Assembly (NCBI RefSeq): GCF_001999985.1
Contig: NZ_CP019645.1
Span: 434,001-498,000, forward strand
Origin: Helicobacter bilis
Lineage (GTDB): Bacteria; Campylobacterota; Campylobacteria; Campylobacterales; Helicobacteraceae
Direction: 5' to 3'
DNA length: 64,000 bases
The position numbers and the translations under genes are program-made. The stretch's first letter is position 1; every line of letters begins with the position of its first letter. Positions 7,463-30,526 of the stretch are shown here, one piece after another. Below the pieces are notes generated by a model. The model did no database searches. It saw nothing but the letters and a program-made list of their open reading frames with translations, and had not been told where the DNA came from.

Positions 7463-8002
7463 ATGATTGCAAAGATTTTAGCTGGGTTTTATCTGCTTCT
7501 TGTTGGGGTTTGCATAGGTGGCATTATTGTTACAAATATTTCAGAATCTATTATCATGAGTATAGATATAGTGTTTAGAAATAATGATTTTAGCACCACG
7601 CTTATCACAAAATATGATCAAGGCATTATTCTTGCGCCCATACTTTTGCAGGTTGGATATATGCTTGTGTTTGCGGCTATTTTTATGCTATTTTACGAAA
7701 CGATGAGCTATAGATTCCAAAAAAGCACCTTTTTTGTATGGGCGTGCAATGTGCTAAATGCTATCCTTATGTTTTTATTTGGTTTATTTTATGCACCAAA
7801 CATTGCAAAGATTTTCAATGAAGAGCCAAAAGTTATGGCAAGTCCAGATTCAGAATCTTTTTTAAATCAAAGTGAGCTGATACTAAAATTATTGCTTGCC
7901 ACTTTACTCATTGCCTTTTTTGCACGCATTATTCTTATGTATAAAAGGGGTGTAACAGAGTTAAGACTAACCAAACAAAAAGATGATAAAAAACCACAAT
8001 AG
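7463..8002 (+). CDS. Membrane protein, DUF4149-like
   Basis: A 179-residue integral membrane protein with four predicted spans: about residues 5-28, 52-78, 86-110 and 140-165. Between spans 3 and 4 a hydrophilic segment contains MASPDSES. The pattern of a first span with conserved glycines (YLLLVGVCIGGIIV) and a FGLFYAPNIAKIF-type segment resembles DUF4149/TMEM205-like proteins of Campylobacterota. No enzymatic motif is visible. It follows the DUF493 gene at 12 bp and precedes the YibQ-like gene, so an operon is likely. Confidence 0.65.
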   Translation: MIAKILAGFYLLLVGVCIGGIIVTNISESIIMSIDIVFRNNDFSTTLITKYDQGIILAPILLQVGYMLVFAAIFMLFYETMSYRFQKSTFFVWACNVLNAILMFLFGLFYAPNIAKIFNEEPKVMASPDSESFLNQSELILKLLLATLLIAFFARIILMYKRGVTELRLTKQKDDKKPQ

Positions 8003-12496: not shown

Positions 12497-14236
12497 CTAC
12501 CACCTATATCCCAACGAAAAAGTAGCAATCCTAAGCTGTCCTACACCACCACTTGCATAAATGCTACTTGAGCTATCCTTAAAAGTATTACTCAAAGACA
12601 CACCCACATCAAAATCACGGAAATTATACTTCGCACCAAGCCCTATCATATAGCCATTACTATCAGGGATACCTATGGCAGTTTGTGGCACAGGGGCTTT
12701 ATCATACGCTGCTGAAAGCATAAGTCGCAGACGCTTTGTGATATAAGTCGCCCCAACCCTAAAAGTATGTGTATCCACCCAGCCATTCCCCATAGCTACC
12801 GCAGTAAAATCAGCCAAGCCCACCATACCCATGAGTTGCTCTTGGCTAAAGCTCTCTGGCACACTGCCCGGACTTGCGGTAAATTTTGCCTCGTCCCAGC
12901 CAAACTCTGTGTCAAACTTCCTACCCCTACTCCAAAATGTCCGCTCATAAGTCGCCTCTAGTCGTAACTTATGCTTATTTTTAAAGGTCCAGTCATGGCT
13001 ATATGCAATGGTTAGAATCTCAGGCATAGTTACATAAAGATATAGGGGGGCGTCCATTCGCACACTGCCTACTGGACCACCGATAATCGTATCTGCACTC
13101 ACCTTACCTTTAAACTGCATGGCAACCGGGCTATTATACACCACAGAAAACATACCGCCATCTCCCACTCTGGCCGACACACTTGCACGATAGCCAAAGC
13201 CTATATCACTACCATCACTTTTCTGCACGACTTGTGCTGTGCCGACAAGGCAGGTTTGAATTTTGGCTACCATAGCTTTAATGGCGTCTAGCCTAGTTGC
13301 ATTTGGTGGCAATCCAAGAAAAGGATATGCACCGGGATTCTCAATAATAGCATCAAACATGCCTGCCATATCGGGTGGGATAAGTCCGTCCGGTAAAGAT
13401 TCTAAAATTGTTGGATCAAAAGATGGTGTGCAATTTTTACCTGCCGTTGGTTCTTTTCCCTGCTGTATCTGTTCCTGCTGTATCTCTTCTGGCAATTTGT
13501 CGCCATTACCATTTTGCCCTTGTTGTTGGGCTGTCCCTAACGGCACATATACGATATTATTAAACTTCCCCATACCATATAAAAGGCGTGGGGCAAAACC
13601 CACAGAGATTCTATCTCTATAGGTGTAGCTAATCGATGGGGCAAACTCGATTAAGAATATAAACACATCTTGTAGAAACTCACCGCCTAAGCCATTCCAC
13701 TTCATCGCTAAACCACTAGGGGCGATGAAACTCGCCCCAAAGGTAAAGCCATTATAATTTTTTGATTTATAGAAAAATTTTGGCAACATAAAGTTTGTAT
13801 CGCCAGTCGAGCCATCTACCATAGCAGAATCTGCTTTTGTATGCTGCAATTCTATTTTCTTTGGTATTAAACTGCCAAGTATTCCCTCTACTTGCCCCAC
13901 AAGGCCCTTATAATCCATATATGTAACAGAACTTAAGCCTTGATTTGTAGTCGGCACTTGAAACTTAAATCCCGGGATATTAATAAGTGAGAAAGCAAAC
14001 TCAAACTCATGCTTATTTTCCCCCCAGTCATTTTTAAAGCCCATATTCGCAGGATTATAGTAACTTGCATCAGCACCCCTAGCCCCTGCTACATACGCAG
14101 AGCTTAAAGCTGTGGCATTCAAGCTTTGCTCTTGTATCTTAAAGCCATTTGCCGACATCTTCGCATAAAACATACATGATAATAGACATAATACTACTGC
14201 TTTTGTATTTATGCCTATTTGCTGACATCTTCGCAT
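12497..14236 (-). CDS. OMPP1/FadL/TodX-family outer-membrane protein
   Basis: A beta-barrel outer-membrane protein of the long-chain fatty acid/hydrocarbon channel family. After the signal peptide come the family hallmarks GFKIQEQSLNATALSSAYVAGA and ARGADASYYNPANMGF (NPA-type plug), then alternating beta strands to a C-terminal aromatic residue (FSLGYRW). The frame is open back to 15289, but residues upstream of 14236 translate repeats, so I place the start at ATG 14236. That gives 579 residues with a plausible signal (AVVLCLLSCMFYAKMSA, cleavage before NGF). No ribosome site is clear there; ATG 14278 or a non-standard start is possible because the signal region is tandemly duplicated. The H. 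pylori relative is HP0839 (recalled). Confidence 0.8.
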   Translation of the reverse strand: MRRCQQIGINTKAVVLCLLSCMFYAKMSANGFKIQEQSLNATALSSAYVAGARGADASYYNPANMGFKNDWGENKHEFEFAFSLINIPGFKFQVPTTNQGLSSVTYMDYKGLVGQVEGILGSLIPKKIELQHTKADSAMVDGSTGDTNFMLPKFFYKSKNYNGFTFGASFIAPSGLAMKWNGLGGEFLQDVFIFLIEFAPSISYTYRDRISVGFAPRLLYGMGKFNNIVYVPLGTAQQQGQNGNGDKLPEEIQQEQIQQGKEPTAGKNCTPSFDPTILESLPDGLIPPDMAGMFDAIIENPGAYPFLGLPPNATRLDAIKAMVAKIQTCLVGTAQVVQKSDGSDIGFGYRASVSARVGDGGMFSVVYNSPVAMQFKGKVSADTIIGGPVGSVRMDAPLYLYVTMPEILTIAYSHDWTFKNKHKLRLEATYERTFWSRGRKFDTEFGWDEAKFTASPGSVPESFSQEQLMGMVGLADFTAVAMGNGWVDTHTFRVGATYITKRLRLMLSAAYDKAPVPQTAIGIPDSNGYMIGLGAKYNFRDFDVGVSLSNTFKDSSSSIYASGGVGQLRIATFSLGYRW

Positions 14237-14302
14237 AAAACATACATGAAAATAGACATAATACCAACGCTTTTGCATGTATGCCTGTTTGCCGACATCT
14301 TC
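14148..14302. repeat. 70-bp tandem duplication over the FadL-like signal peptide
   Basis: Two units (14148-14217 and 14218-14287) and a third partial unit (14288-14302) each begin TTTGC(C/T)GACATCTTC. The units differ by a handful of substitutions. Because 70 is not a multiple of three, the duplicate encodes the same kind of signal peptide in a different frame (ALVLCLFSCMFYAKMSA in the outer copy, AVVLCLLSCMFYAKMSA in the inner copy). This obscures the true translation start. Confidence 0.85.
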
Positions 14303-14303
14303 A

Positions 14304-15110
14304 GTTTGTATTATTTTGTCGTTTTGGGAAAAAGCATTCTTGTCGTTTTGTGTTTTTTTGTCATTTTGAGCGAGGGCGAAAAATCTTTTTTTTATATTTG
14401 TGGTTTTTTGTTTGCTTGTCATTTTGGGAAAAAGCATTCTTGTCGTTTTGTGTTTTCTTGTCATTTTGAGCGATAGCGAAAAATCTCTTTTAGAATCTTG
14501 GCTAGATATTCCGCTTCGCTCAATATGACAATCTATTGTTTTAGATTCTAAAACCTTGTCATATTGTGTTTGTATTATTTTGTCATTTTGGGAAAAAGCA
14601 TTCTTGTCATTTTGTGTTTTCTTGTCATTTTGAGCGATAGCGAAAAATCTCTTTTTTATATTTGTGGTTTTTTGTTTTCTTGTCATTTTGAGCGAGGGCG
14701 AAATATCTCTTTTAGAATCTTGGCTAGATATTTCGCTTCGCTCAATATGACAATTTTTAGATTCTAGATTCTTATCCAAATGGGTGGGTGCAGGGCGTAG
14801 GGGTGCAAAATTGCAAGATTCTAGATTCTGTTTAGAGATTAGGTTTTGTTTAAATTCTAAAACCTTGTCATATTGAGCCATAGGCGAAAAATCTTTTTTT
14901 GTTTTTATACCCTTAATTTTCATATTTGCGGTTTTATGTGTTATACCCGCTACATTTGTTTCCACATCTTTAACACTTTGTTTGCTTGTCATTTTGAGCG
15001 AGGACGAAAAATCTTTTTTAGAATCTAAATCTTGCTTAGATTCTAGGTTAGATACTTCAGCTAACGCCGTAGTATGACAAACTATCTTAGATTGCAAAAC
15101 TTTGCCATTT
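14304..15110. repeat. Cluster of dispersed palindromic repeats upstream of the FadL-like gene
   Basis: The stretch is packed with units containing TTGTCATTTTGAGCGA and GCTCAATATGACAA that can pair with each other. A 123-bp segment is directly repeated (14304-14426 and 14568-14690). The 930-codon minus-strand frame crosses all of it without a stop and gives peptides such as CHIERSEISSQDSKRD, the typical translation of this repeat. I treat it as noncoding repeat DNA that happens to be open, not as a protein domain. Confidence 0.8.
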
Positions 15111-15400
15111 CTTAGAGAATCTCTGCTTTGCATATCAAGCAAAGAATCTGTTTTAGATTCTATGATATTTGTATCTTGCTGTTTTATTATGGTTTTGAAT
15201 CTTTGCGAATGTATAAAATTATGTTTTTTGCCCCAAATCCCTACACCCATATATTGAAATAATTTTAATATATAATTGTTTTTATACATTCTCTACCCCA
15301 AAATATTTTTACTCTCAATCATTTATATTGCGTATTTTACAAGCATTTGTGTAAATGATCGTTACCACCCTTTTACATTATGATACACTAATGCAATGAT

Positions 15401-15814: not shown

Positions 15815-18800
15815 ATGCGAAATTATGAAAAAAGCAGCAGTGATTTAAAGAAGTTTAGGGCAAATAAACACCTAGATAACATAAAAGATAATATTGATAA
15901 TGCGATTAAAAACGCCCTAGATTCTAAGGTTATAAAAGATGAAATTGCAATAAGGGAATTTGGCGAAAATTATCCACAATTTTATCATAAACCACAAGAA
16001 GCAATCAGCCATTTACTAGAAACAAGAAGTGGGCAAGTTCAAGCTGCGATGCATAAAAAAGGCGTGGGTGATATTGATTTTATTTGGGGTGATTCTGAAA
16101 AAGGTTTGCAACATATATTAGAGAGACGCACCCAACAATATGGGGAGGAAAAAGCTTTAAAATTTGTAAAAGATTTGCCTAGAATGATAGATGAAGCAGT
16201 TGTCTTTGAGAGTCTAAAGCATAAAATTATTTTAAAAACACCAAAAGCAACAATCGTCTTAGGAAAAAGAGAAAACAATCAATTCGTATTAAGTGGTTTT
16301 TATGATCGTAAAAACAAGAAGTTGGGGATTAGCAGTCCTAGTTACGAAGCTAATTTTACAGATAAGTCGGGATTCCAACATAACGATGGCGGTGTTCTCT
16401 TATCAAACCGCCCAAATCCTACCCAAAAAACATTAACGCGTCAAGAAGCAGACGAACTTTTTTCAAACTTTCAACAAGCAAATAAAAACTACGCACAAAT
16501 AAAAGAGTCTTTAAATGACAAATTTGCCAAAGCCCTAACCAAAGGCATGAATAAAAAAGACTTAGATTCAAGACTTACCATAGAGCAATGGAAACAAAGA
16601 GTGCTAGACACACAATGGGGTGATAGCATAAAAGGGCTAGAGAACACAATATTTAAAAACTTTAATCCAAGAATGCAAAAACACACACAAATGCTAACAA
16701 TACTTAGGGCATTAGACAGAAATGTAAAGCTAAATGATGATACATTCCCAATTGATTTTACTAAGATTTTAAGCGATATTGAGAATCTAGAAAAGCTTAC
16801 ACTGCACCCTGAAATCTATCCTATACTCGATACTTTTAAAAGCTATGCTAAAAGCTATCAATTCGCCCAAGAAATAAGCAAAGCAAAAGCATTAGAAAAC
16901 CAAGTAGGCAGCGGTGCATTAGCCACAACACTAGAGGGCAGAATAAAAGTCTTTTTAACCAATAGATTATTTAAAAAGCTTTTTGCCTTTATCCCTTACA
17001 TAGGCGATAATGCAGCCATAACAAAAGCCTTGCAAAGTGCTATAAAAGATTTAAAATACCCAAGTGAAATCACACTAGAAACGCTTAAAGTGCTAAATAA
17101 AGCAGATTTAGACAAAGGCTTTAAACCCATAAAAGATAAAGAGAATAAACCAAGATTTGAATACAAGGCAAACACACCTTTAAGTGATAAAGAATTACAG
17201 AGCCAAATAAGAGGTAATACACAGATATTAACCCCAAAAGATACAAGCGAGATAGAAGCCATTGCAAGTAATCCACTCATTCAAAACATGGAGAGACAAG
17301 CAAAGTATAATGAAGAACTCACACAAAAAATAAGCCAATTTGAAGCAAATAAAGAAAACATTCAACAAGATATATTAAATAATCTAGTTGTTGCCACACA
17401 AGAGATAAAGCAAAACACAGAGTTATTAAAACAACTAGCCCAACAACTCACACACAATAACCCAATCCACACGCCAAATAAAAGCATAATAAAAGCAGAG
17501 GCAAATAATGAAACCTATTTCATAACAACAGATAAAAACAACATCACAGCCATAGAAAAACAAGAATTGCAGCTAGCACAGCCAAAAACTTATGATGAGT
17601 TAATGCAAAGAGACAAAAACGAAAACGCAACACTAGAATCATACAGAGACCAATATGCAGATATAGCAGAGATAAAAGAAGCACAAGCACAGAAGCAATT
17701 GTTGTTAGAGTATAAGCCAGAAGTTGCGAAAGCTAGTGAAACAATAGAAAAAGGCGTAGATGAAAAAATAAAAGTGTTACCTAAAATCAACTTAAATACA
17801 GCAAAAAGAGGCGAGATAAAAGAATACTTGTCGCAAATTTTAAAGCCGATTTTAGACAAACCTTTGAGAAATACGCAGGGCTTACAAGCCTATTTAAATA
17901 ACGCTTCAATCGATAAAATGATAAGCGATAAAGCCATAACAAAAAGCGTAGAAAACGGATTTAGTAAGCAAGAACACTTAGAAGCGGTGGCGGATATAGA
18001 AAGGCTTTTTAGCATCTCTAAAGAAGCAATCGCACACAGCCACAGAGAGAATAACCCGGGCGTAATCATTCACAGATTAAACGCACCTTTTAAAGAATCT
18101 AATGCACTGATAACGACAAAAGAAAGCCTAGATAAAAATAAAAATAGAATATATAGTGTAGAGTTAGAATTAACCCCTCGCTTCAACACTTCTACACGCC
18201 CGACAGATATAGAAGCTAACAAGGGCGGTTTTAACTCACTAAATGGACAAGGCGGACAAAACTTACCGACTATTGCTAAAACCGATACCGACATTATACC
18301 ACAAAAGCTAACAGAACGCATAAAAAACGATTTAGATTCTAACGATTATGCAGAAATGCTAAAAAGTTTAAAGCAATTAGAAAATAAACAAGCAGAGATT
18401 GATACATTTACAAATGAAGCCAACTTAATACGCAACACTTTAGAAAAGCAAGAGACAGAGAAATATGAAAAAATAGTAAGTCCTTTATTTGATAAATATC
18501 CAATAATGAAAGAGTTTTACAATGAAAGAGATATAAATACACATATCTATTTTAAACGCTTTAAAAACGAGTTTTTAGAGCGATACAACACGCAATATGA
18601 TTTCTTTACTTTAGATGAAAAAGCCTTTCTAGCTAAATATCCAAATTTTACTCAACAAGACTATAAGGAAGCTACAACACAGAATCTAAAAGCCTTAAAA
18701 GATAAAAATGTAAGCATAAATGAATATGTCTCTTTTGCTAAAGAATATATGGATATTGTAAATAATCCTGTTTTTGAAAAGATGGCGAAAGAAATTGATT

Positions 18801-20464
18801 CTGTAGATAAAAAATATTGGGATACTCACTTTGAGATGAGTGAGCAACGGGATTCTAAAGTAAATGAAATCATTGCCATACTTAAAAAGGATATTGACTC
18901 TATTGATATTGCAAACAAGGCAGATGTTAGCATTGATAATTTCCATAAATTAGGCAGATACCTTGCATTTATGAAGCAGCCTGAATTTGGATTTGCTAAC
19001 AAACTGACATTCACAAAAACTGGGTTTTTTGGAAAATTTTTAGAACAGACAGATATAAAACAACGAGAACTTTTAGGCGAATTATTATCAGTAGAAAAAC
19101 TTTTAGAGAAAGAAGGAAAAGCTAACAGAGTTTTACAAGATAGGCTTTTCACTATATTTAGGTTAATGCGAGGGGAAGAGTTACTAGATAGAGAGATAAA
19201 AGATGTACCATTAGCAAGAGAGTTGATAGAAAAACAGCTAAACATTAAACCCATAAAAGAATTTGGCACAAACTATGCAGAACATTATCACAGCGGCGAG
19301 ACTGCTATACAAAAACTCATAAATGAAGCACAAGCACATAAAGAAAGCGGAGCTAAGGGCGAGTATAAAGGACAAGTTGCAGGGGCATTTCATCGTAAAG
19401 AATTGGGGGATATTGATTTAGTATGGGGAGAAGTAACAGGCAAAGGCAAAGAAGCTAAAGGCTGGGGACTTGCTAAGATTATTGAAAAGCATGGCGATGA
19501 GTTTTCAAGTTTTAGCGGAAATACAGAAGAACAAAAACTTATAAATGGTATAAATGAGATTATACAAAATGGCAAACTACTTACTGAAAATGGCGTAAAT
19601 ACGCTTTATTTACAAAAAGATAACAAAGTATTTTTAGTAGGATTAAGTAAAGGTTGGGATAAAAAAGGCGAAAATCAATGGATAATCACAAGTTATGAAG
19701 CAAATAATCTAAGCCCTGATATATTAGAAAAAATCGGTGCTAACAAAACTATTTCTGCTGATGAAAGCCTTAATGCGTTACAGACTTTTAACGCAACCGA
19801 CAACAACATTATACCACAAACCTCACAAGAAATAGTTAAAAATAACAATATAAAAGAATCCGCAAATATGCTAGAATCTAAAGTAAAAATGCAAGGGCAA
19901 GATTTGGATTTATTTAGCACTTTTATAGAAAATGGCAGAATTAGAGAAGATGTATTAAACAGCTATGCTAAGAAAATGCCAGATATGCTAAATCAGCAAG
20001 AATTTTTAGCACAAATCCCGCATAAAGACAAGCAGGGATACAGCACAATACAAACACCCATAGGAAATATAAAAATTAATTTAAACCACGCTTGGAATCA
20101 CTTGAATAAAGGCAATACCTACAAGAAAGATAGAAGTTTATATAGCGGTGCATTCCTTGATACCCTTGCCGACCCGCTTTTTATCGTTAAGCAAGAATAT
20201 ACCCCTAATCCTAAAGTGTCTGCGAATGCTAGGGAAATGCAAAATAGCAAACTAGTGCAGACTAGAGATGATGAAAGTATAGCACAAGATTCTTATGTAT
20301 TCTTTAAGCCTTATAAAATTAAGGATAAATTTAATTATATGGTTGGCTATGCGTTAGATATACAGGGAAACATTATCAATACAACATTTATTCCTATGAG
20401 TAATAGAGATTTTGGCAGAATTAAGAAAATGTTTAGCTCTCAAGTGCTGTATGCGAAGTTATAG
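15815..20464 (+). CDS. Polyvalent phage protein with DUF3519/PBECR nuclease-like modules (5' truncated)
   Basis: Polyvalent proteins are giant, multi-domain phage or plasmid proteins thought to enter the host with the DNA. The first ATG is 15815, but the frame is coding-like from 15524 (ARVKKAAKARKLLPLARSKH...) with no ATG, GTG or TTG, so the N-terminus appears lost. Residues 50-195 and 1148-1292 are two copies of a Barnase/ColicinE5-like endoribonuclease module (AAMHKKGVGDIDFIWG...GLQHILERR and AFHRKELGDIDLVWG...GLAKIIEKH). Residues 712-788 resemble the LPD3-type domain (AVADIERLF...IYSVELELT). Residues 1390-1549 form a third nuclease-like tip (HAWNHLNKG, DTLADPLFIVKQEY, YVFFKPYKIKDK). Long coiled-coil regions link them. 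Activity is inferred from family only. Confidence 0.8.
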   Translation: MRNYEKSSSDLKKFRANKHLDNIKDNIDNAIKNALDSKVIKDEIAIREFGENYPQFYHKPQEAISHLLETRSGQVQAAMHKKGVGDIDFIWGDSEKGLQHILERRTQQYGEEKALKFVKDLPRMIDEAVVFESLKHKIILKTPKATIVLGKRENNQFVLSGFYDRKNKKLGISSPSYEANFTDKSGFQHNDGGVLLSNRPNPTQKTLTRQEADELFSNFQQANKNYAQIKESLNDKFAKALTKGMNKKDLDSRLTIEQWKQRVLDTQWGDSIKGLENTIFKNFNPRMQKHTQMLTILRALDRNVKLNDDTFPIDFTKILSDIENLEKLTLHPEIYPILDTFKSYAKSYQFAQEISKAKALENQVGSGALATTLEGRIKVFLTNRLFKKLFAFIPYIGDNAAITKALQSAIKDLKYPSEITLETLKVLNKADLDKGFKPIKDKENKPRFEYKANTPLSDKELQSQIRGNTQILTPKDTSEIEAIASNPLIQNMERQAKYNEELTQKISQFEANKENIQQDILNNLVVATQEIKQNTELLKQLAQQLTHNNPIHTPNKSIIKAEANNETYFITTDKNNITAIEKQELQLAQPKTYDELMQRDKNENATLESYRDQYADIAEIKEAQAQKQLLLEYKPEVAKASETIEKGVDEKIKVLPKINLNTAKRGEIKEYLSQILKPILDKPLRNTQGLQAYLNNASIDKMISDKAITKSVENGFSKQEHLEAVADIERLFSISKEAIAHSHRENNPGVIIHRLNAPFKESNALITTKESLDKNKNRIYSVELELTPRFNTSTRPTDIEANKGGFNSLNGQGGQNLPTIAKTDTDIIPQKLTERIKNDLDSNDYAEMLKSLKQLENKQAEIDTFTNEANLIRNTLEKQETEKYEKIVSPLFDKYPIMKEFYNERDINTHIYFKRFKNEFLERYNTQYDFFTLDEKAFLAKYPNFTQQDYKEATTQNLKALKDKNVSINEYVSFAKEYMDIVNNPVFEKMAKEIDSVDKKYWDTHFEMSEQRDSKVNEIIAILKKDIDSIDIANKADVSIDNFHKLGRYLAFMKQPEFGFANKLTFTKTGFFGKFLEQTDIKQRELLGELLSVEKLLEKEGKANRVLQDRLFTIFRLMRGEELLDREIKDVPLARELIEKQLNIKPIKEFGTNYAEHYHSGETAIQKLINEAQAHKESGAKGEYKGQVAGAFHRKELGDIDLVWGEVTGKGKEAKGWGLAKIIEKHGDEFSSFSGNTEEQKLINGINEIIQNGKLLTENGVNTLYLQKDNKVFLVGLSKGWDKKGENQWIITSYEANNLSPDILEKIGANKTISADESLNALQTFNATDNNIIPQTSQEIVKNNNIKESANMLESKVKMQGQDLDLFSTFIENGRIREDVLNSYAKKMPDMLNQQEFLAQIPHKDKQGYSTIQTPIGNIKINLNHAWNHLNKGNTYKKDRSLYSGAFLDTLADPLFIVKQEYTPNPKVSANAREMQNSKLVQTRDDESIAQDSYVFFKPYKIKDKFNYMVGYALDIQGNIINTTFIPMSNRDFGRIKKMFSSQVLYAKL
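19769..19814. repeat. Module-junction repeat, copy 1 (inside the polyvalent gene)
   Basis: This 46-bp stretch starting CTTAATGCGTTACAGAC lies just before the C-terminal tip module and recurs at 21896-21941 with one mismatch. A shorter relative (ACCGATACCGACATTATACC) is near 18280, after the LPD3-like module. These junction copies fit homologous exchange of C-terminal modules. Confidence 0.75.
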
Positions 20465-22143: not shown

Positions 22144-22250
22144 TTGTCATGTTGAGTGCAAAGCACGAAACATCTCGCAAGTTTTGCAAGGCGGGTAAAA
22201 TCCTTTTTATTTACAAGTAAAGATGTTTCGGCTTTGCCTCAACATGACAA
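22144..22250. repeat. Dispersed palindromic repeat (intergenic)
   Basis: TTGTCATGTTGAGTGCAAAG at the left pairs with the right end CTTTGCCTCAACATGACAA, and the inner arms CGAAACATCT and AGATGTTTCG also pair. A partial extra TTGTCATGTTG precedes it. It lies within the 425-bp gap between the dUTPase-fold gene and the next membrane protein. That gap otherwise holds the displaced junction repeat. Confidence 0.8.
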
Positions 22251-22290
22251 GTGAGAGACTCAACAATAAACCATAAGGATAAAAAGCAAA

Positions 22291-22809
22291 ATGCTAAAAA
22301 CAATTGGAAATATTATTTATGATTATTATCAATTCTTTATACTCCCATTCTTAAGCATAAGTATATTCTATGCTATGGAATATATGAGTCGGGGTGTAGA
22401 GTTTTTTGTTGATGAAAAGGGTGTGAAGTGGCGATTTTTAAGCTTTTGCGCTTTAATGCAATTTTTCGTTAGCTTAGTTGTTATTTTAAGCGTTTCTGCT
22501 ATGTTTAAAAGTGATGCCCTGCAAGAATATCAAACCTTGCAACTTGTAGCCATTATCTTACTTGGCACAACACCCTTTAACATAAGCATTTTAATATGGG
22601 TAGCTATAAAACTAGAGATTTACAGACTTATGCGGAATCGATATGAAAAAGAATTTAAAGAGATGATACATACAGACTCCTTATTACAAGAAGCCCTAAC
22701 AGGTAAGCCACAAAGCACACAACAAGAAAACAAACTAAAAGAGCTAGCACAAACACACACCACACAAACAGAATCTAAAACACAAGCAAATAAAGAAAAA
22801 GACATATAA
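22291..22809 (+). CDS. Small membrane protein of the island, three predicted spans
   Basis: A 172-residue protein with hydrophobic spans at about residues 13-32, 48-72 and 84-108 and a hydrophilic, glutamine/threonine-rich C-terminal tail (TQQENKLKELAQTHTTQTESKTQ). Size and topology would suit a holin, and its position in a phage-derived block is compatible, but no sequence motif proves it. A TAAGGATAAAAAGC ribosome context precedes ATG 22291. The next gene begins 11 bp after the stop. Confidence 0.6.
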   Translation: MLKTIGNIIYDYYQFFILPFLSISIFYAMEYMSRGVEFFVDEKGVKWRFLSFCALMQFFVSLVVILSVSAMFKSDALQEYQTLQLVAIILLGTTPFNISILIWVAIKLEIYRLMRNRYEKEFKEMIHTDSLLQEALTGKPQSTQQENKLKELAQTHTTQTESKTQANKEKDI

Positions 22810-22820
22810 AGGTAATTGCA

Positions 22821-23207
22821 ATGAATACAAAAACAATAATAGCTTTTGCTGCTTTAGCCTTATTTTTATATATACAACTAAACGCAAAGCTAGATGATAT
22901 CATTTTAGGCATAGATTCAAATGCTAGTGTTTTAGTGTCTTTAAGAGATAGGCAAAAAATGCAAGATGCAGATGGGAAAATTGTATTAATAAAAAATAAC
23001 ATTAAAGCCTTAGAGGATACAGAATGTAAAAAATGCCATGTATTAAATGAAAATCTATTATTACCTATTGAGAATAAACATATAAGCTATGAAACTTTTT
23101 TAAGGTTTGTAAGAGAAGGAGGCTTATATATGCCAAGCTTTTCGCCTGAAAGTATAAGTGAAACAAAAATACAACAAATCTATACAAAATTGTATAACAG
23201 CAAATAA
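22821..23207 (+). CDS. Membrane-anchored protein with c-type heme motif
   Basis: 128 residues. The N-terminus is a single hydrophobic anchor (TIIAFAALALFLYIQL). At about residues 73-77 is CKKCH, a C-x-x-C-H heme-attachment motif. The C-terminus reads FVREGGLYMPSFSPESISETKIQQIYTKLY, with a methionine in the position of a distal heme ligand and the terminal helix seen in small class I cytochromes c. It sits 11 bp after the three-span membrane gene. A c-type cytochrome is unexpected in a phage-like block; it could be captured host cargo, or a zinc-binding protein. Confidence 0.55.
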   Translation: MNTKTIIAFAALALFLYIQLNAKLDDIILGIDSNASVLVSLRDRQKMQDADGKIVLIKNNIKALEDTECKKCHVLNENLLLPIENKHISYETFLRFVREGGLYMPSFSPESISETKIQQIYTKLYNSK

Positions 23208-23283
23208 GATTTTTACTTTTATGAAGGGAAATCATGTAAAGAAGTAAAGCAAACAGACACACTTGTCATGTCCGCCCCTTTCC

Positions 23284-23363
23284 TTGTCTTGTTGAGTGTA
23301 AAGCACGAAACATCTAACCTTTATGCAAGTAAAGATGTTTCGGCTAACGCCTCAACATGACAA
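23284..23363. repeat. Dispersed palindromic repeat
   Basis: TTGTCTTGTTGAGTGTAAAG and CGAAACATCT are mirrored by AGATGTTTCGG and CCTCAACATGACAA. It is the same family as at 22144-22250 and fills most of the gap before the hairpin leader of the next gene. Confidence 0.78.
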
Positions 23364-23439
23364 GAGAAAGGCAAACAAAGATTTAAAAACAGGCAAACAA
23401 AACCCAGCTTTTTAAGGTTGCGTTATAGCTTTTGTAACT

Positions 23440-23546
23440 TTTTCTAAATTTTAGCTAGGCGCATACTAGTCGTATGTAACTAGCTAAAATTTAGAAAATT
23501 TGCAGAATGTATAACCAAAATGAAAGCTTTTAAAAAGAAAGGATAA
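23440..23546 (+). promoter_or_regulatory. Hairpin leader with mini-ORF upstream of the 619-residue protein gene (type A, copy 1)
   Basis: A perfect 19-bp inverted repeat (23440-23458 with 23480-23498, arm TTTTCTAAATTTTAGCTAG) encloses a 21-base loop. The loop itself folds as CATAC-TAGTC-GTATG. A mini-ORF at 23520-23546 encodes MKAFKKKG, and the main gene starts 6 bases later after AAAGGATAA. The same arrangement at 25675-25781 keeps the structure with compensatory changes, so folding appears selected. Possible roles are RNA regulation, processing or ssDNA recombination. Confidence 0.65.
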
Positions 23547-23552
23547 ATAACA

Positions 23553-25412
23553 ATGTATAAAGTAGAAGATGTAAGAGAACACACCTACCCTTACAACCAA
23601 AGCTTTTTAGACAAATATCCCTTTATGCTAACAAGCTTTAAAAGTGATAATTTACCCATGATTGTTTTAGATAATGAAGAAATAGATTTAATCTTTGATT
23701 TAGCAACACATTTTTACAGAAAGCTAAGACGATTAAAGGTGCTACAAGATATGAAATGGGGTATTGTCTCATTAACAAAAGATGTAGCTAGTTATGTTTT
23801 AACCGCTGCAAGTATTGGATCTCAATTTATCCCATTAGTAGGACAGCTTATGAGTGCAGTTTTAGCTTTAGCGCAATTAGGATTAGAAATAATTTATACC
23901 TTTACTAAAAAATTTTGGGAATACCCAGATTATATAAATGAGTTGTATTTTGTGATAAAGATGTTTGTAACTTGGGCTAAGATTAGCGATGGCAACAAAC
24001 AAGAATTATTAAGCGGGGTAACAAACTATATAGAAATGCAAAAAGAAGAGTTTAACGACTTAGTGCATGAAGAAGGCTATGCTGAGCTTGATGAGTTAAG
24101 CATAATGTATATTATGGATAATTATCTCCCCGCATTTAAAGCAAGGGTTAAAAAGGTAATGAAAAAAAGCGGTAAAGATTTAAGTCAGGCAATACCTGAT
24201 ATTAACCCAACAGCACCCGGAAAAGATGATACTAACGAAATAGACTTTGCAAAAGAACCACAAGAAGAAAACCCGCAAGAAAAAAGAGAGCATTCAAATG
24301 AAAACGAGGGCAAGATTCTAGATACCATGCGAAACAGACAGAGTAAAGAAATGCCCGGCAGCAATCATTATGACTATGAGTATAGTAAAAGGGGTTTTAA
24401 TATAAAGCTAGAAAAAGCACAAGAAATTGATATTACAAAAGATTTAGCACAAGAAGCCGCAGTCGCACAAGTGGTAAAAGGGGGTGTTTTGGCGTTATGC
24501 AGTTTGCATTATTGCAAAAGATATAAGGCTTTGCGAGAATTTAACGATATTTGCGAAGTAAAAGCACATATCCCAACAGATATGCAAGAACAAGAAATAA
24601 ACCCAAGCATAAAACGCTTTAATAACCAAATCGCACATAAACAGCTAAAAGATTCACAAAACAGATACAAAGAGGGCTATCAGCCAAAAATCACGCATTA
24701 TTTAAAGCTTGATTTAATCGATGAAAGCATAGACAGATATTATAGAGATTATATGAATCTATACAGCCAATTAAGCGAGGAGAGTAAGCTAAAGTTTGGT
24801 TTTGTGGAATTAACAGAGAGTAAAGAGGCATGGTTTTATTCCCCACATATTTGCAAAGAAAAAACACAGGGCAAAAGAACCCCTCCAAGTGAAGAAGAAG
24901 CAAAAAAGATTATAGAAAACTACACAAAACAAAGAGAGATAAAGAAAAAGGAATTTGAGAGTAAAGAAGAAAATGTAAATAAAAGATTTTATTTAAGGCA
25001 GGTTAATCTAAGTAGGACAGATTTAACCCTAAAAAAATATGCGTTTCAAAAAGGGGATTATGTATTTAGCGATAGCAATCATAAAATATTTATTGCAAGT
25101 TATGATGGCGAAGGGTTTAGACACACAATAAAAACACAATACTTTTATGTAGATAGCATTGCAACAGGGGAGTTTAGCATTCAACCTTATGAAGTGGAAG
25201 AGTGGGACGGTGAGGAAAGCATAAGTGTAATATATTATCGCCTACTTATCACACACAGAGTTACACTCAAACACAAAGTCGATAAAGATTTTCTACAAAA
25301 AGAAATAGGCAAGCTTGTTACACAACTTGCAATCGATGGAAAGAATCATGGCTTACCACAAAATACAATAGATAAGAATTTAGATAATTTAATACAAAAT
25401 GGAATGTTATAA
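23553..25412 (+). CDS. Unrecognised 619-residue island protein with central membrane segment
   Basis: I do not recognise this family. Residues about 80-118 are hydrophobic and glycine/alanine-rich (VLTAASIGSQFIPLVGQLMSA), like a membrane hairpin. Residues 150-330 are charged, and a basic/acidic middle contains several proline-rich acidic stretches. The C-terminal third looks beta-rich (FQKGDYVFSDSNHKIFIASYDGEGF, YFYVDSIATGEFSI). It lies between the type A leader and a strong terminator, so it is a single-gene unit. Size and position next to a capsid gene suggest a virion or injected protein, but it does not show portal features that I can point to. Confidence 0.6.
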   Translation: MYKVEDVREHTYPYNQSFLDKYPFMLTSFKSDNLPMIVLDNEEIDLIFDLATHFYRKLRRLKVLQDMKWGIVSLTKDVASYVLTAASIGSQFIPLVGQLMSAVLALAQLGLEIIYTFTKKFWEYPDYINELYFVIKMFVTWAKISDGNKQELLSGVTNYIEMQKEEFNDLVHEEGYAELDELSIMYIMDNYLPAFKARVKKVMKKSGKDLSQAIPDINPTAPGKDDTNEIDFAKEPQEENPQEKREHSNENEGKILDTMRNRQSKEMPGSNHYDYEYSKRGFNIKLEKAQEIDITKDLAQEAAVAQVVKGGVLALCSLHYCKRYKALREFNDICEVKAHIPTDMQEQEINPSIKRFNNQIAHKQLKDSQNRYKEGYQPKITHYLKLDLIDESIDRYYRDYMNLYSQLSEESKLKFGFVELTESKEAWFYSPHICKEKTQGKRTPPSEEEAKKIIENYTKQREIKKKEFESKEENVNKRFYLRQVNLSRTDLTLKKYAFQKGDYVFSDSNHKIFIASYDGEGFRHTIKTQYFYVDSIATGEFSIQPYEVEEWDGEESISVIYYRLLITHRVTLKHKVDKDFLQKEIGKLVTQLAIDGKNHGLPQNTIDKNLDNLIQNGML

Positions 25413-25476
25413 GTTTTGTTAGTCTCTGTCTTTTGCTAAAGAAGCTTTTATTTGTAGATTTGAAGTATAATTTTAC

Positions 25477-25519
25477 TGCCGCTTAAGCTACGAACTTAAG
25501 CGGCAATTTTCTCTTTTCT
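25477..25519 (+). terminator. Rho-independent terminator after the 619-residue gene
   Basis: A perfect 11-bp stem TGCCGCTTAAG / CTTAAGCGGCA (25477-25487, 25495-25505) with a 7-base loop is followed by ATTTTCTCTTTT. It lies 65 bp after the stop codon. Confidence 0.85.
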
Positions 25520-25674
25520 AGCAAGAGCCAGAAAGGAGGCTTTGTTTTTAACATGTTTTTACACAACATAAAATAACACCACAAAGCAAAGAAACCACAT
25601 AAACGCAACAAAGCCCTAAAACCATGCAAAAGACAAAACCAGCTTTTTAAGATTGCGTTATAGCTTTTGTAATT

Positions 25675-25781
25675 TTTTCTAAATTTTGGCTAGGAGTTAT
25701 CTAAGCGATAATGACTAGTCAAAATTTAGAAAATTTGCGAAATGTATAACCAAAATGAAAGCTTTAAAAAAGAAAAAATAA
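25675..25781 (+). promoter_or_regulatory. Hairpin leader with mini-ORF upstream of the capsid gene (type A, copy 2)
   Basis: The arms TTTTCTAAATTTTGGCTAG (25675-25693) and CTAGTCAAAATTTAGAAAA (25715-25733) pair with one G-T wobble. The 21-base loop has the same 3-5-5-5-3 layout as copy 1, with TTATC/GATAA replacing CATAC/GTATG. A mini-ORF encoding MKALKKKK occupies 25755-25781. A run of seven C (25794-25800) lies between it and the capsid start. The flank before the hairpin (GCTTTTTAAGATTGCGTTATAGC) is also shared with copy 1. Confidence 0.65.
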
Positions 25782-25864
25782 AAAACAAAATATCCCCCCC
25801 TTTAAATGAACACAAAAACAAACTAATATACAAAACAAATACTCACAACACAGGAGCTAAGACA

Positions 25865-27028
25865 ATGAGTTACACTCTAACAGATATTATAAATAACCCT
25901 AACATAGGCATTGAAATCGGCAAAGAAATAGAGTCTATGAGTTGGATTAAAAGCCCTTTTGAACCACTTGTAGGGCAGGGAAGCGACAGAGGCATAAGAA
26001 GTTATCAAATCGCAAATAAACAGCCATTCCGCCCACGACTTAAAGCAAGATTGACCGGCACAGGAGTCCAAGATAATGAGGAATTTCAAACAAATTATGA
26101 TGAAATGGAAATCCTAAATCAGACAATTTACCCAAAAATTAGCGGTAATGGTTTATTAAGCCCAGTATTTCATTATAGTGAAATGCAGTTTATTGACTTT
26201 GAAAAAGAAGCAAAAGATAGCCTTGCTACATGGATGATGGATACAAGAGATAAGCAATTTATAGCCGCTTTAACAAATGATTTAACAAACTGCGTAGTAG
26301 CTGATGCCACAAATGGCTACAAAGACACCACAGCTGAGACAAGTGTCAAAAATGCAAGTAAAAAGATACAAAAGGGCGATACAATCAGCGTTAAAGCAAT
26401 CCGCAGGGCGATTTTTCTAGCAAGGACTGGCATTGATTATAAAAATAGAGAGATTTTCCCACTTAAACCAATCCGCGCACAAAGCATGAGTAATGGCGGC
26501 ATAAGCACAATGCACTATTCTTATATTATTATGCTTGATAGCTATGGAATCCAGCAGTTAAAGAATGATGAAGAATGGCGAGACATGCAAAAATACGCAG
26601 GGGAGAGAGGACCTAGCAATAATCTTTTTATGGGATTAGTAGGCATGATTGATGGCTGTCCAGTATTAGACTTTGGCGTATGGAGTGAAGCAGCAGCGGG
26701 ATTATGCAATTCTGAAGTCAAAGATAAAGACTTTTTACGCTTTTTAAATAAAGATAACACACATAATAAGATTGTAAAGCCTAGTGATTATGCAGACGCA
26801 CAGCCAGTGTCAATTGGCTTTTTAATTGGAGCTAGTGCATTGTTAATCGCTGGGAATCTAAGCCCTAGAATGTATGTAGAACAAAAAGATGCAGGAAGAA
26901 AAATCGCAGTAGGTATGGATAGAGTTATGGCAATTGCTAAGGCTAGATTTGGTGAAGATGATAATGGGTTATTAAAGTATAGTGGGCAGGATTTTGCCAC
27001 GATTGGGTTGTTTTATTCTAAAGAATAA
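25865..27028 (+). CDS. N4-gp56-type (DUF4043) phage major capsid protein
   Basis: The family forms the icosahedral shell of N4-like and related podophages. Start ATG 25865 is chosen because AGGAG precedes it; an upstream in-frame ATG (25742) overlaps the leader hairpin region. The 387 residues show the pattern LKARLTGTGVQDNEEF, then IYPKISGNGLLSPVFHYSEMQFIDFEKEAKDSLATWMMD and DKQFIAALTND. The later HK97-like core includes YIIMLDSYGIQQLKNDEEWR. Length is normal for the group. No terminase, portal or protease gene is adjacent. Identification is from pattern recall and should be confirmed by profile search. Confidence 0.75.
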   Translation: MSYTLTDIINNPNIGIEIGKEIESMSWIKSPFEPLVGQGSDRGIRSYQIANKQPFRPRLKARLTGTGVQDNEEFQTNYDEMEILNQTIYPKISGNGLLSPVFHYSEMQFIDFEKEAKDSLATWMMDTRDKQFIAALTNDLTNCVVADATNGYKDTTAETSVKNASKKIQKGDTISVKAIRRAIFLARTGIDYKNREIFPLKPIRAQSMSNGGISTMHYSYIIMLDSYGIQQLKNDEEWRDMQKYAGERGPSNNLFMGLVGMIDGCPVLDFGVWSEAAAGLCNSEVKDKDFLRFLNKDNTHNKIVKPSDYADAQPVSIGFLIGASALLIAGNLSPRMYVEQKDAGRKIAVGMDRVMAIAKARFGEDDNGLLKYSGQDFATIGLFYSKE

Positions 27029-27054
27029 AATTTAGTTAGCGTTTGTCTTGCGGA

Positions 27055-27141
27055 CACTTTTAAGGGAATTATCGCTTTTTTGTTCGGTCATGTATGTATA
27101 ATACACTCCCTCTCAAAAAATCTCAATAACCCTTAAAATTG
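27055..27141. promoter_or_regulatory. Large imperfect hairpin, type B copy 1
   Basis: CACTTTTAAGGG...TTTTTTG pairs with CAAAAAA...CCCTTAAAATTG across a TGTA-TGTATAA-TACA tip. It lies 26 bp after the capsid stop and belongs to a 140-bp block repeated at 27986-28127. The matching pair in the second copy changes GGG/CCC to GTG/CAC, a compensatory change. It could be a terminator-like or RNA-processing element. Confidence 0.55.
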
Positions 27142-27283
27142 CCGCAGCACATACTTCACGCTTTAAAGTCTCTAGTTTGCAATTTGCAAATCTTAGAATC
27201 TAGTTTAGTTACATGCAAGGCGATAAAGCTAAAAAGCAAGGCAGCCTAAAAGGCAGATAAACCACTTTCCTGCTATAAAAAAA

Positions 27284-27331
27284 GGTAAATCATTAATTTG
27301 TTACCACGAGATGAAAGCTTTAAAAAATTAA
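27284..27331 (+). promoter_or_regulatory. Shared leader with mini-ORF MKALKN
   Basis: The 38 bases 27284-27321 (GGTAAATCATTAATTTG, then TTACCACGAGATGAAAG) recur identically at 28223-28260. Here they run into a mini-ORF (27311-27331, MKALKN stop), followed by AAAAAAGGATAAC and the start of the next gene. Identity over noncoding bases points to a common regulatory or recombination origin. Confidence 0.6.
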
Positions 27332-27344
27332 AAAAGGATAACAA

Positions 27345-28010
27345 ATGGCACTAAGGCGTAAAACACCACAAGATAAAGACATTCAGCAATTACAAATAAA
27401 AGAATTACAAGAAATTGTAACAAATCTCACAAAAGAAATACAAGAGCTAAAAGAGCAACAAAAAAGCGAGGGCAATTTAGGCGAAGTGGTGAATACACTT
27501 ATACAAGAGATTAAGGGTTTGCAAGATTTTACATTTTCGTTGCAGAAAACCTTAAAAGAACATGCAGAAAATAGTCAATACCTACTCTCTAAGATTAATA
27601 AAACCGAAGGTATTGCAGATAAAAACGCAGGTGATATTTATAACCTAAAGATAAAAGAGGGTTTGCATAGTGATTTACTCGATAGGGCAAAGCCTATTAT
27701 TGAGATTGCAGATCCTTTGTCTACAGTTGCATTTAGAATCCAAAAGCTAGAAACAAGTTTGCAAAAAGTTAAGGATTTTAACCCCCAAGAGTTAAAAGAG
27801 AGAGAAGAAGTAAATACTAATTGTATAACCGATTTGCAAACAGACTTTTTATTGCATGGGCAAATGTTGGCAGATTTAAGACTAGAGATTGAAAAAGTAA
27901 AAAAACTTCAAGCCCTGCATGATAAGCAAATACACGCCCTGAAGCATGAAGTAAGTAAAAGTGTATGGGAAAAATTGTTTAAGTGGCGTTTGTCTTTTGG
28001 ACGCTTTTAA
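27345..28010 (+). CDS. Coiled-coil island protein
   Basis: 221 residues, almost entirely predicted helix with heptad patterns (IQQLQIKELQEIVTNLTKEIQELKEQQ; LRLEIEKVKKLQALHDKQIHALKHEV). No signal or enzymatic motif. Its last codons (KWRLSFGRF) are encoded by the start of the repeated type B block, so its C-terminus was probably created or altered when that block was inserted or duplicated. It lies between the capsid and the fibre gene and is likely a structural or scaffold-like protein. This is inference from position. Confidence 0.6.
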   Translation: MALRRKTPQDKDIQQLQIKELQEIVTNLTKEIQELKEQQKSEGNLGEVVNTLIQEIKGLQDFTFSLQKTLKEHAENSQYLLSKINKTEGIADKNAGDIYNLKIKEGLHSDLLDRAKPIIEIADPLSTVAFRIQKLETSLQKVKDFNPQELKEREEVNTNCITDLQTDFLLHGQMLADLRLEIEKVKKLQALHDKQIHALKHEVSKSVWEKLFKWRLSFGRF

Positions 28011-28127
28011 GTGAGTTATCAATTTTTGTTCGGTCATTACCTATTATAGGTAACTCCCTTCACAAAAATTTCAACAACACTTAAAATCGCCTCAAAATAC
28101 TTCACGCTTTAAAGTCTCTAGTTTGCA
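27986..28127. repeat. Type B intergenic block with large hairpin, copy 2
   Basis: Direct repeat of 27039-27181, starting GCGTTTGTCTT and ending CTTTAAAGTCTCTAGTTTGCA. The hairpin occupies 28002-28089: CGCTTTTAAGTG pairs with CACTTAAAATCG, ATTTTTGT with ACAAAAAT, and the tip TTACCT-ATTAT-AGGTAA is perfect. It begins inside the coiled-coil gene and ends in the gap before the fibre gene leader. Confidence 0.7.
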
Positions 28128-28147
28128 GTTAAAGCAAACAGGCAGAT

Positions 28148-28219
28148 TTGTCATCAAAGCCCAAACATCTTTTTATTTGCAAAGCTAGAGATATTTCGCC
28201 TTGCGGCTCAACATGACAA
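28148..28219. repeat. Dispersed palindromic repeat (degenerate)
   Basis: TTGTCAT at 28148 and AAACATCT are mirrored by AGATATTTCG and GGCTCAACATGACAA ending at 28219. The left arm is more eroded than in the copies at 22144 and 23284. It separates the type B block from the shared 38-base leader. Confidence 0.65.
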
Positions 28220-28282
28220 AAGGGTAAATCATTAATTTGTTACCACGAGATGAAAGCTTTTAAAATTAAAAAAGGATTAAAT

Positions 28283-30526
28283 ATGAATGACACACAAGAA
28301 TTTCAAAGAACAACAATAGCAGAAGTTACACAAAACACACAAGCAGATTCTAGCCCAGATGAAAGCCAAAAGATGGGCGAAGCAAATGCACTAGATTCTA
28401 AAACACAAGACACACAAACAGAATCTACACAAGCCCAAAGCATTACAGAGCAATTACATAACGCCATGCAAGAAGTGGATAAACAAATAGCCCAAGAAGT
28501 AAAAGATAAAAAAGCAGACCTAGCAAACCCAATAAATCCCCCACAAAGCATAACCCAAGCCGATAAAGACAGGCTAGAAAAAGTTTATACAGATATGCAA
28601 AACGCACTCACACAGAATGCAAACTTTATTATTAAAACAGATTTAAGCCTAAGGGGCATTACTGAACTCATTGCTATTATGCGTATTTTAAATGACTTTT
28701 ATCTCTATCATGTAGAATTGCTTAAAGACAATAAAGAAAGCATTGAGGTAGCAGTCATTGACATTGAAGCGATGAATAAGAGATTTAGCGAAATGGTGAG
28801 ACTTGCAAACGGCTACATCATGCAAGCCTTAAAAGAAATAGATAATGCAAACGCTACTTCCCTTGCCCTGCGTAATGAAATAGAAGCCCTGCATGATGCT
28901 TGTCAGCTAGATTTAGCCGATACAAAAAACACCATGCAAAAGGTTACACAAACCTATGAGAAATTACAGCTTATAGAACATAATATAGGGAATTTAGAAC
29001 AAGCCATAGAAGAGTTTGAGAGGCTTACAGAGAATAACGAAAGCCTTTTAAATGATATGCGAGATTTCTTAAATACAGAGTTAAATAACGCAATAGCTGC
29101 GTTAATGCTAAAAAAAGAAGAGTATGAAAGAGATTTGCAAGATAATTACACAGGTTTGCAAGAAGCATTCAACAAGCTTTTAGCACAACTCCAAACACAA
29201 GCCCAAGATTTCATAGTAGAATCAAATCAAATAAAAACAGACACAATCAATGAGATAAATTCTGTTGCAAACAATAGACTCCAAGAAGTAAAAGCCCTTG
29301 ATACTGAAGTAAATGCAAGACTAACAGCCTTGCGTGATGAATCTTTACAAGCCCTAGATACAAAGAAAACAGAGGGGCTTTTAGAGTTAGAGACAAAGGC
29401 AAATGAACTAGCCACAGAATGCAATACTAAAAAAGAGTTATACCTCCAAGCAATCACAGATTTAAGCGAAAAAAGCTTAGAATCTATCACAGCAAAAGGC
29501 GATGAGAAAAAAGCCGAACTAGAAACACATACGCAAAACTTCATACAAGAAGCAGAAAATAAAAAGCAAGAGATAACAAATACGCTAGATTCTAAAAAAG
29601 CCGAGTTAGAACAAGCAAAAGAAAATGGGCTAAATGAGATACGACAAGAGGCAAGCACACATGAGACACAACTCCAAACCAAGCTAGAAGAAAGCCTAGA
29701 ATCTATCATTCAAAAAGGTGAGGAAAAAATACAAGAAATAGAAAACAACACCACACAAGCAAATACAAATCTAGACTCTAAACTCCAAGAGATAGAAACA
29801 AAAACACAGCAAGTAGAAAACAATGTCAATACAATGATACAAGAGCATAATACGCATTTAAACAGCTTTGCTACACAATCACAAGAAGCCTTAAATGCGA
29901 TTAAAACAGAGGGTATGCAAGAGATTCGCACAGAAGCCCAAAGACTATTAGAACAAATCAAAAATAACACGACCACACTTGATCAAAATGTAAGGCAAGA
30001 GTATGAGACATGGCTTTTAAACTTGCAAAATAAAGGACAAGAAGCACAGACTTTAATACAAGAGGGCATAAATACAACAATCCCAAATGCCCTGCAAAAC
30101 TCTCAAACAGAGCTAGAGACGAAGAAAGAAGAGCATTTACAAAGCATAGATTCACAAAAAGAAAGCAGTTTAGAATCTATAAATGAACTCACAGAACAGA
30201 CAATAAGTCAGCTAAAAAGCACATTTTCTTTTTTAATGAGTGATTTAACTCATGAAAATTTCACACAGACAACAACCTGGAATAAGCCACAAAATGTAAA
30301 AAGAGTGTTTGTAAATGTCTTAGGTGGCACAGGGGCAAATAATGCCACAACAAGAGGCACGCCCTCTTCCTTTGGCAGTTTTGTAACCGCGCAAGGTGGC
30401 GTGGGAAATGCAGGGGGAAATGGGCAGTTTGGGGAAATGAAGTTTAGCATTGTGGATATACCAGAGAGTGAGACTAGCATAAATGTAAGTATTGGAGCAG
30501 GGGGAAGTGTGGATATATTTTATTAA
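28283..30526 (+). CDS. Phage tail-fibre-like protein: long coiled coil with glycine-rich tip
   Basis: Start ATG 28283 is supported by AAAAAAGGATTAAAT. An in-frame ATG at 28250 belongs to the shared MKAFK leader, which in this copy has no stop and would add 11 residues. Residues about 60-640 are a long alanine/glutamate/glutamine-rich helical shaft with quasi-repeats such as (L)ESI-x-KGEEK and KKAELE. The C-terminal about 80 residues switch to VKRVFVNVLGGTGANNATTRG...GGVGNAGGNGQFGEMKFSIV...VSIGAGGSVDIFY. That is the glycine-rich tip found at the ends of phage receptor-binding fibres. It is the last island gene before rimO. Confidence 0.7.
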   Translation: MNDTQEFQRTTIAEVTQNTQADSSPDESQKMGEANALDSKTQDTQTESTQAQSITEQLHNAMQEVDKQIAQEVKDKKADLANPINPPQSITQADKDRLEKVYTDMQNALTQNANFIIKTDLSLRGITELIAIMRILNDFYLYHVELLKDNKESIEVAVIDIEAMNKRFSEMVRLANGYIMQALKEIDNANATSLALRNEIEALHDACQLDLADTKNTMQKVTQTYEKLQLIEHNIGNLEQAIEEFERLTENNESLLNDMRDFLNTELNNAIAALMLKKEEYERDLQDNYTGLQEAFNKLLAQLQTQAQDFIVESNQIKTDTINEINSVANNRLQEVKALDTEVNARLTALRDESLQALDTKKTEGLLELETKANELATECNTKKELYLQAITDLSEKSLESITAKGDEKKAELETHTQNFIQEAENKKQEITNTLDSKKAELEQAKENGLNEIRQEASTHETQLQTKLEESLESIIQKGEEKIQEIENNTTQANTNLDSKLQEIETKTQQVENNVNTMIQEHNTHLNSFATQSQEALNAIKTEGMQEIRTEAQRLLEQIKNNTTTLDQNVRQEYETWLLNLQNKGQEAQTLIQEGINTTIPNALQNSQTELETKKEEHLQSIDSQKESSLESINELTEQTISQLKSTFSFLMSDLTHENFTQTTTWNKPQNVKRVFVNVLGGTGANNATTRGTPSSFGSFVTAQGGVGNAGGNGQFGEMKFSIVDIPESETSINVSIGAGGSVDIFY

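Follow-up and report, generated by a model that had tools for sequence, protein, structure and literature searches.

Two long hairpins stand before neighbouring genes of a Helicobacter bilis prophage, one upstream of a gene for a 619-aa protein and one upstream of the major capsid gene. An earlier note had read them as leaders of these two genes, and the locus raises the question of whether they serve the phage as regulatory leaders or represent something else. To answer it, the hairpins were examined within the window, the whole 64,000-nt stretch of DNA analysed (NZ_CP019645.1, positions 434,001 to 498,000), and their relatives were then collected from other genomes. The hairpins look like parasitic DNA rather than phage regulatory leaders.

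The two prophage hairpins and their surroundings

The inner hairpins were present at 23440-23498 (+) and 25675-25733 (+) of the window, and both had the 19-bp stem, the 21-nt tip and the 3-5-5-5-3 geometry that had been reported. The tip of copy 1 was GCG-CATAC-TAGTC-GTATG-TAA and that of copy 2 was GAG-TTATC-TAAGC-GATAA-TGA. As described before, four of the five inner pairs changed in a compensatory manner from CATAC/GTATG to TTATC/GATAA, and one outer pair changed from G-C to G.T; a further compensatory change from A-T to G-C beside this wobble had been overlooked. The inner hairpins folded far better than dinucleotide shuffles (z = -10.1 and -10.4), and none of 200 shuffles was equally stable. 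The arm pattern was unique to these two hairpins within the window, with a chance expectation of 0.53 matches, and ATGTATAACCAAAATGAAAGC followed both of them directly and exactly.

The hairpins were therefore real, but their boundaries had been drawn too narrowly, since the pairing extended outward on both sides to a total of about 129-130 nt. The flanks AGCTTTTTAAGRTTGCGTTATAG and GTATAACCAAAATGAAAGCT also paired, so that each copy formed one continuous hairpin, with folding energies of -52.8 kcal/mol for copy 1 and -50.1 kcal/mol for copy 2. The whole copy 1 spanned 23400-23534 (+) and the whole copy 2 spanned 25635-25769 (+), and they matched the covariance model R1 described below with 117.1 and 128.6 bits, respectively. 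The mini-ORF MKA(F/L)KKK, which the earlier note had placed behind each hairpin, turned out not to be conserved, because its ATG and ATGTATAACCAAA were the outer 3' arm of the hairpin. In copy 1, ATGTATAACCAAA and the supposed mini-ORF ATGAAAGCTTTT...TAA (23507-23546, +) consisted of this arm and then the run-in to the gene, and the arm paired with AGCTTTT at 23406-23412 and with GCGTTAT. A leader peptide was ruled out, as the reading frame was absent where the arm was GAATCT, GAATAT or AAATCT instead of AAAGCT. The hairpins were also ruled out as intrinsic terminators, since they had no T-run; the likely terminator of the 619-aa gene was the hairpin TGCCGCTTAAG/CTTAAGCGGCA, which was followed by a T-rich run at 25477-25515 (+), 3' of the gene and outside the element.

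The genes around were those of a tailed-phage-type prophage, including a capsid, a portal-like protein, a DnaG primase, a DnaB-like helicase and an integrase-like protein. The 619-aa protein (23553-25412, +) had no Pfam or PHROG match. As a probe, it found no match in phage records or viral contigs and matched only three H. bilis-group contigs, and the nearest named contigs belonged to Helicobacter bilis and H. rappini. Four nucleotides past the stop codon of the major capsid gene (25865-27028, +; Phage_capsid_3, phrog_334), a diverged third copy was found in antisense (27032-27168, -; 44.2 bits) with the inner stem TGTAT/ATACA. Its minus strand folded at -44.2 kcal/mol compared to -27 kcal/mol, over slightly different spans. 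A diverged fourth copy, also antisense, overlapped the end of the 221-aa gene (27979-28114, -; 45.9 bits). Only the right half of the element was present upstream of the 221-aa gene (about 27270-27319, +; 3' arm CTGCTATAAA... to ATGAAAGC) and upstream of the 758-aa tail-type gene (about 28218-28258, +).

The same prophage stretch occurred twice in the chromosome, at about 22291-30526 of the window and at G000:C1:812356-820600, where G000 is this genome. The second stretch, at 812-829 kb, repeated both hairpins, with copy 1 at 100% identity, so its copies are not independent of the first two. A second palindromic repeat family, TTGTCATGTTGAG...GAAACATCT / AGATGTTTCGGC...GCCTCAACATGACAA, was seen at 22144-22267, 23284-23366 and 28186-28222 of the window, directly upstream of hairpin elements, and it accompanied other element copies too. 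The window also carried a 1549-aa polyvalent prophage protein (15815-20464, +) with a PBECR1 nuclease and an LPD3 domain.

A dispersed family with covarying arms and a fixed strand

An inverted-repeat scan of the prophage regions of this genome and three close relatives returned dozens of hairpins, which had the common tip TAG-GAG-TTAYC-n-GRTAA-TGA-CTA on quite different stems. Overall, the conserved tip had the form GAG-N5-n4..7-N5-TGA and sat on a TAG/CTA base. RNAalifold, applied to 44 aligned copies, gave 40 pairs, 31 of which had changes on both sides, and these copies were the seed of the covariance model R1 (137 positions, 40 pairs). Among 100 distinct copies collected with R1 from fetched loci, 95.5% of the cells were paired, and both-side changes were found in 34 of the 40 pairs. 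The double-changed cells numbered 1110, compared with 338 in shuffles, and the covariation score was 0.673 against 0.177 for shuffled and at most 0.115 for slid alignments. The covariation of the outer arms was visible by eye (AGCTTT/AAAGCT, AGATTC/GAATCT, ATATTC/GAATAT, AGATTT/AAATCT and AAATTC/GAATTT). In every copy, one of the strands is able to form a single long hairpin, and all helices covary.

The search of Helicobacter genomes with such a model, which was the main test named in the earlier note, returned many further covarying homologues, and these bore out its view that the structure is conserved over the sequence. R1 found about 56 loci in the 2.62-Mb genome. Across the family, matches were obtained in at least 41 of 121 Helicobacteraceae genomes and 7 of 13 genera, with dozens in some genomes; these counts are lower bounds, as strict filters were applied. 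The element was also found in prophages of H. canis and H. cinaedi. An order-level search of 399 genomes gave four weak matches outside the family, with E values of 5e-8 to 4e-6.

The two strands of the element were not equivalent. On the strand carrying the tip, G.U pairs and A.C mismatches occurred at 325:38, and at about 189:37 without two columns in which G.U was the commonest pair. Phage copies at gene starts had a ratio of 57:6, and antisense copies next to stops had one of 41:4. In alignment-free folding, the tip strand folded better in 93 of 97 copies (-50.7 vs. -39.9 kcal/mol). The same held for 16 of 16 antisense trailers, and when G.U was forbidden, the two strands came out almost alike. 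The counts based on the covariance model lean to the modelled strand, while the folding comparison has no such pairing bias, although its copies were collected with the model. These results indicated that it is the tip strand that folds, irrespective of the orientation of the adjacent gene. The polarity of the foldable strand is fixed and independent of that gene.

Placement at gene boundaries and within genes

Most prophage copies had their 3' end within 0-35 nt of the start or stop of a gene, while their 5' end was usually much farther away. The 3' end abutted gene starts in sense copies and stops in antisense copies, and 20 of the 50 assigned prophage copies lay in antisense at the stop-codon end of the adjacent gene. 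The element was thus no leader dedicated to the 619-aa gene and the capsid gene, since it also occurred behind stop codons in antisense and in frame inside host genes. At homologous junctions in two prophages, position and orientation were kept and the subfamily was different. This placement of the 3' end is not predicted by random insertion and is a hint that the position matters or that the unit is larger and composite. The 3' end itself may have a role, or the element may belong to a composite repeat whose 5' part would be the second palindromic family (GTCATGTTGAG...AAACATCT).

At 25 of the 56 loci, of which 21 were sense and 4 antisense, one open frame spanned the element completely and continued for at least 34 codons on either side; 8 of these 25 were weak model matches below 50 bits. 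In contrast, the frame of the prophage copies was nearly always closed. One frame offset was common to 21 of 24 in-frame copies. The host ORFs included PriA, GalE, FolP, HypF, AlaS, MurJ, RavA, ThiE, phospholipase A, PEP-synthase-like, GtrA-like and YidC-like proteins and others, as well as IlvD in another genus. In GalE, FolP, HypF, AlaS, MurJ and IlvD, both sides of the insert matched the same enzyme family. The insert of folP comprised about 110 aa and held the element together with an adjacent second repeat-encoded peptide. It was present in four H. bilis-group genomes and missing in 7 other relatives (4 of 11 compared), and some of the relatives without it carried other short insertions at that place. 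Every galE allele recovered with its 5' end carried the element or a rearranged one.

Copies in unrelated genes were up to 92-94% identical, and identities of up to about 94% imply recent dispersal. The coding and prophage copies formed distinct subfamilies with a best cross identity of about 0.74, so that no recent jump from prophage to chromosome was seen.

Several further observations were made on genes of this kind. In the galE of this genome (L173), the element is followed by a poly-G tract, which makes phase variation possible, and the galE allele of G003 has stops. Two copies lie inside the DnaG primase ORF of an H. canis prophage (BK070053; L110:7094-7224 and 7739-7875), which encodes 682 aa compared with 525 aa in the H. 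bilis prophage. A 930-aa ORF of the window (12497-15289, -) has a FadL/OmpP1-like C-terminal part and, on its N-terminal side, a long run of peptides encoded by repeats (CHIERSEISSQDSKRDISPSLKMT...), which resemble those flanking the element in FolP and other proteins.

Probable mobility and relation to known elements

The hairpins are very probably prophage-borne copies of a dispersed, approximately 137-bp Helicobacter palindromic element, which would belong to the RPE/MITE type of selfish mobile DNA and would be non-autonomous. Other explanations were weighed against this one. A cis-regulatory phage leader RNA, in which a hairpin in the 5' UTR controls how the mRNAs of the 619-aa and capsid genes are translated or how stable they are, would agree with the sense copies ending 9-35 nt before many prophage gene starts and with the position and orientation kept between prophages despite differing subfamilies. 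But the stop-side antisense copies retain the same strand polarity, many copies lie inside ORFs, and the Shine-Dalgarno-like AAAGGATAA is outside the hairpin. Moreover, the element had no Rfam match at or above the gathering score, and none was found in H. pylori phage 1961P despite its related capsid and primase. We consider such a leader very unlikely. The structure may instead be unselected, the arms being complementary only through template-switching correction of quasipalindromes in replication; template switching is known to produce concerted arms (PMC6649704). Two copies (L012:5973-6026 and L080:10256-10309), in which the asymmetric tip has become a perfect palindrome with 24-bp arms and a 6-nt loop, are what this correction is expected to give, and chimeric arms were seen in the galE of G003 and at L080:9795. 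However, it should erase G.T and A.C alike, yet G.U exceeded A.C five- to ten-fold on one strand, and the asymmetric GAG/TGA tip mismatch was kept in nearly all copies. The polarity of the tip strand thus argues against both a plain mRNA leader and template-switch correction alone, and the latter seems slightly less probable still.

Recombination linkers that shuffle prophage modules, such as the PeSL cassettes of T4-type phages or integron attC sites, would fit the prophage genes often bracketed by inward-facing copies and the different subfamilies at homologous junctions, but not the copies inside chromosomal genes. Inspection of the alignment by eye revealed no attC boxes (RYYYAAC...GTTRRRY) at the hairpin base; the GTTAT/ATAAC pair is in the opposite order to attC boxes, and other copies have TGGT/ACCA. 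This origin appears highly improbable. The typical substrates of Y1 enzymes are hairpins with a directional tip, and the element could accordingly be of the REP/RAYT or IS200/IS605 type and moved by a Y1 HUH transposase. Nevertheless, PF01797 was absent from the copy-bearing genomes G000, G002, G003, G006, G012 and G013, the first four of which also had no reverse transcriptase despite many copies. PF01797 was common in genus g2, which had no R1 match among the genomes listed, and the correlation of Y1 and reverse transcriptase with the element over 121 genomes was negative. The element is also several times longer than REPs, and we give this explanation the least credence of all.

A selfish palindromic element therefore remains our preferred reading, and the element is probably mobile. 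Mobility was deduced from the distribution because no insertion event with exact ends or a target-site duplication was caught among the compared alleles. During its spread, an enzyme may recognise the folded tip strand as RNA or single-stranded DNA, and prophages might ferry the element between strains. In-frame copies would persist because each orientation has one stop-free frame, which comes to lie in protein loops that tolerate it. If sense copies, as structured 5' leaders, have a regulatory effect at all, it would be of secondary importance. A more specific and rather unlikely version is a phage-carried element with a folded single-stranded RNA or DNA intermediate and an enzyme unlike Y1 transposases or known reverse transcriptases, which would combine compensatory rewriting of its stem with in-frame insertion into essential proteins.

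The earlier note knew of no described element like this one. No Helicobacter description was found in the non-subscription literature, and a 2025 survey of Helicobacter prophages mentioned no palindromes, hairpins or inverted repeats (PMC11840440), but the Rickettsia palindromic elements (RPEs) are a close functional parallel. According to published accounts (Ogata et al., 2000, via PMC2229807 and PMC10969869), RPEs are long imperfect palindromes of about 105-150 bp in several subfamilies with no known transposase, located between genes and in frame inside unrelated conserved genes. The Helicobacter element is likewise a palindrome of about 100-150 bp that forms one long hairpin and lies in frame inside unrelated protein-coding genes. 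Unlike RPEs, it belongs to another phylum, extends across Helicobacteraceae instead of being confined to Rickettsia and Wolbachia, and is carried by prophages. It also keeps its arms paired, with a bias between the strands, while the arms of RPEs reportedly become less identical over time (PMC6649704). NCBIfam scans of the element-bearing proteins matched no RPE model; TIGR01045 (RPE1) was silent in this genome, and its control genomes were silent too. The element thus appears to work like an RPE and, by sequence and as far as tested, is no member of that family.

Similar to ERIC/IRU and other bacterial MITEs (NEMIS/Correia, RUP, bcr1), which are dispersed hairpin repeats of 100-200 bp with terminal inverted repeats, tens to hundreds of copies and transcripts that are predicted to form long stem-loops, the element is short, non-autonomous and dispersed, and its terminal inverted repeats are arms such as AGCTTT/AAAGCT, AGATTC/GAATCT and ATATTC/GAATAT. 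MITEs are mostly intergenic, however, while nearly half of the loci here are in frame within ORFs. The coding palindromes of Nematomorpha mitochondria are inverted repeats in protein genes, and both of their arms are translated and remain complementary (PMC6649704); they share this arrangement with the element but are mitochondrial and form no dispersed family with a common core. REP/RAYT sequences are also directional palindromes in many copies, but a REP has 20-40 bp and a Y1 enzyme, compared with about 137 bp and no Y1 (RAYT) enzyme for the element.

The best-known palindromic repeats in protein-coding DNA are those of Rickettsia and Wolbachia, and a large Helicobacter family would mean that such selfish DNA arose more than once. 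For annotation, stretches like KTTNSSNCSMALEALxELEGRSYLSDNDYPSN in PriA, GalE or FolP should be read as inserted repeat DNA. The Helicobacter case offers prophage carriers, tens of copies per genome and a strand-specific G.U signal for the folding strand. With it, the movement of such elements and their tolerance by proteins become questions that can be tested in bacteria amenable to culture.
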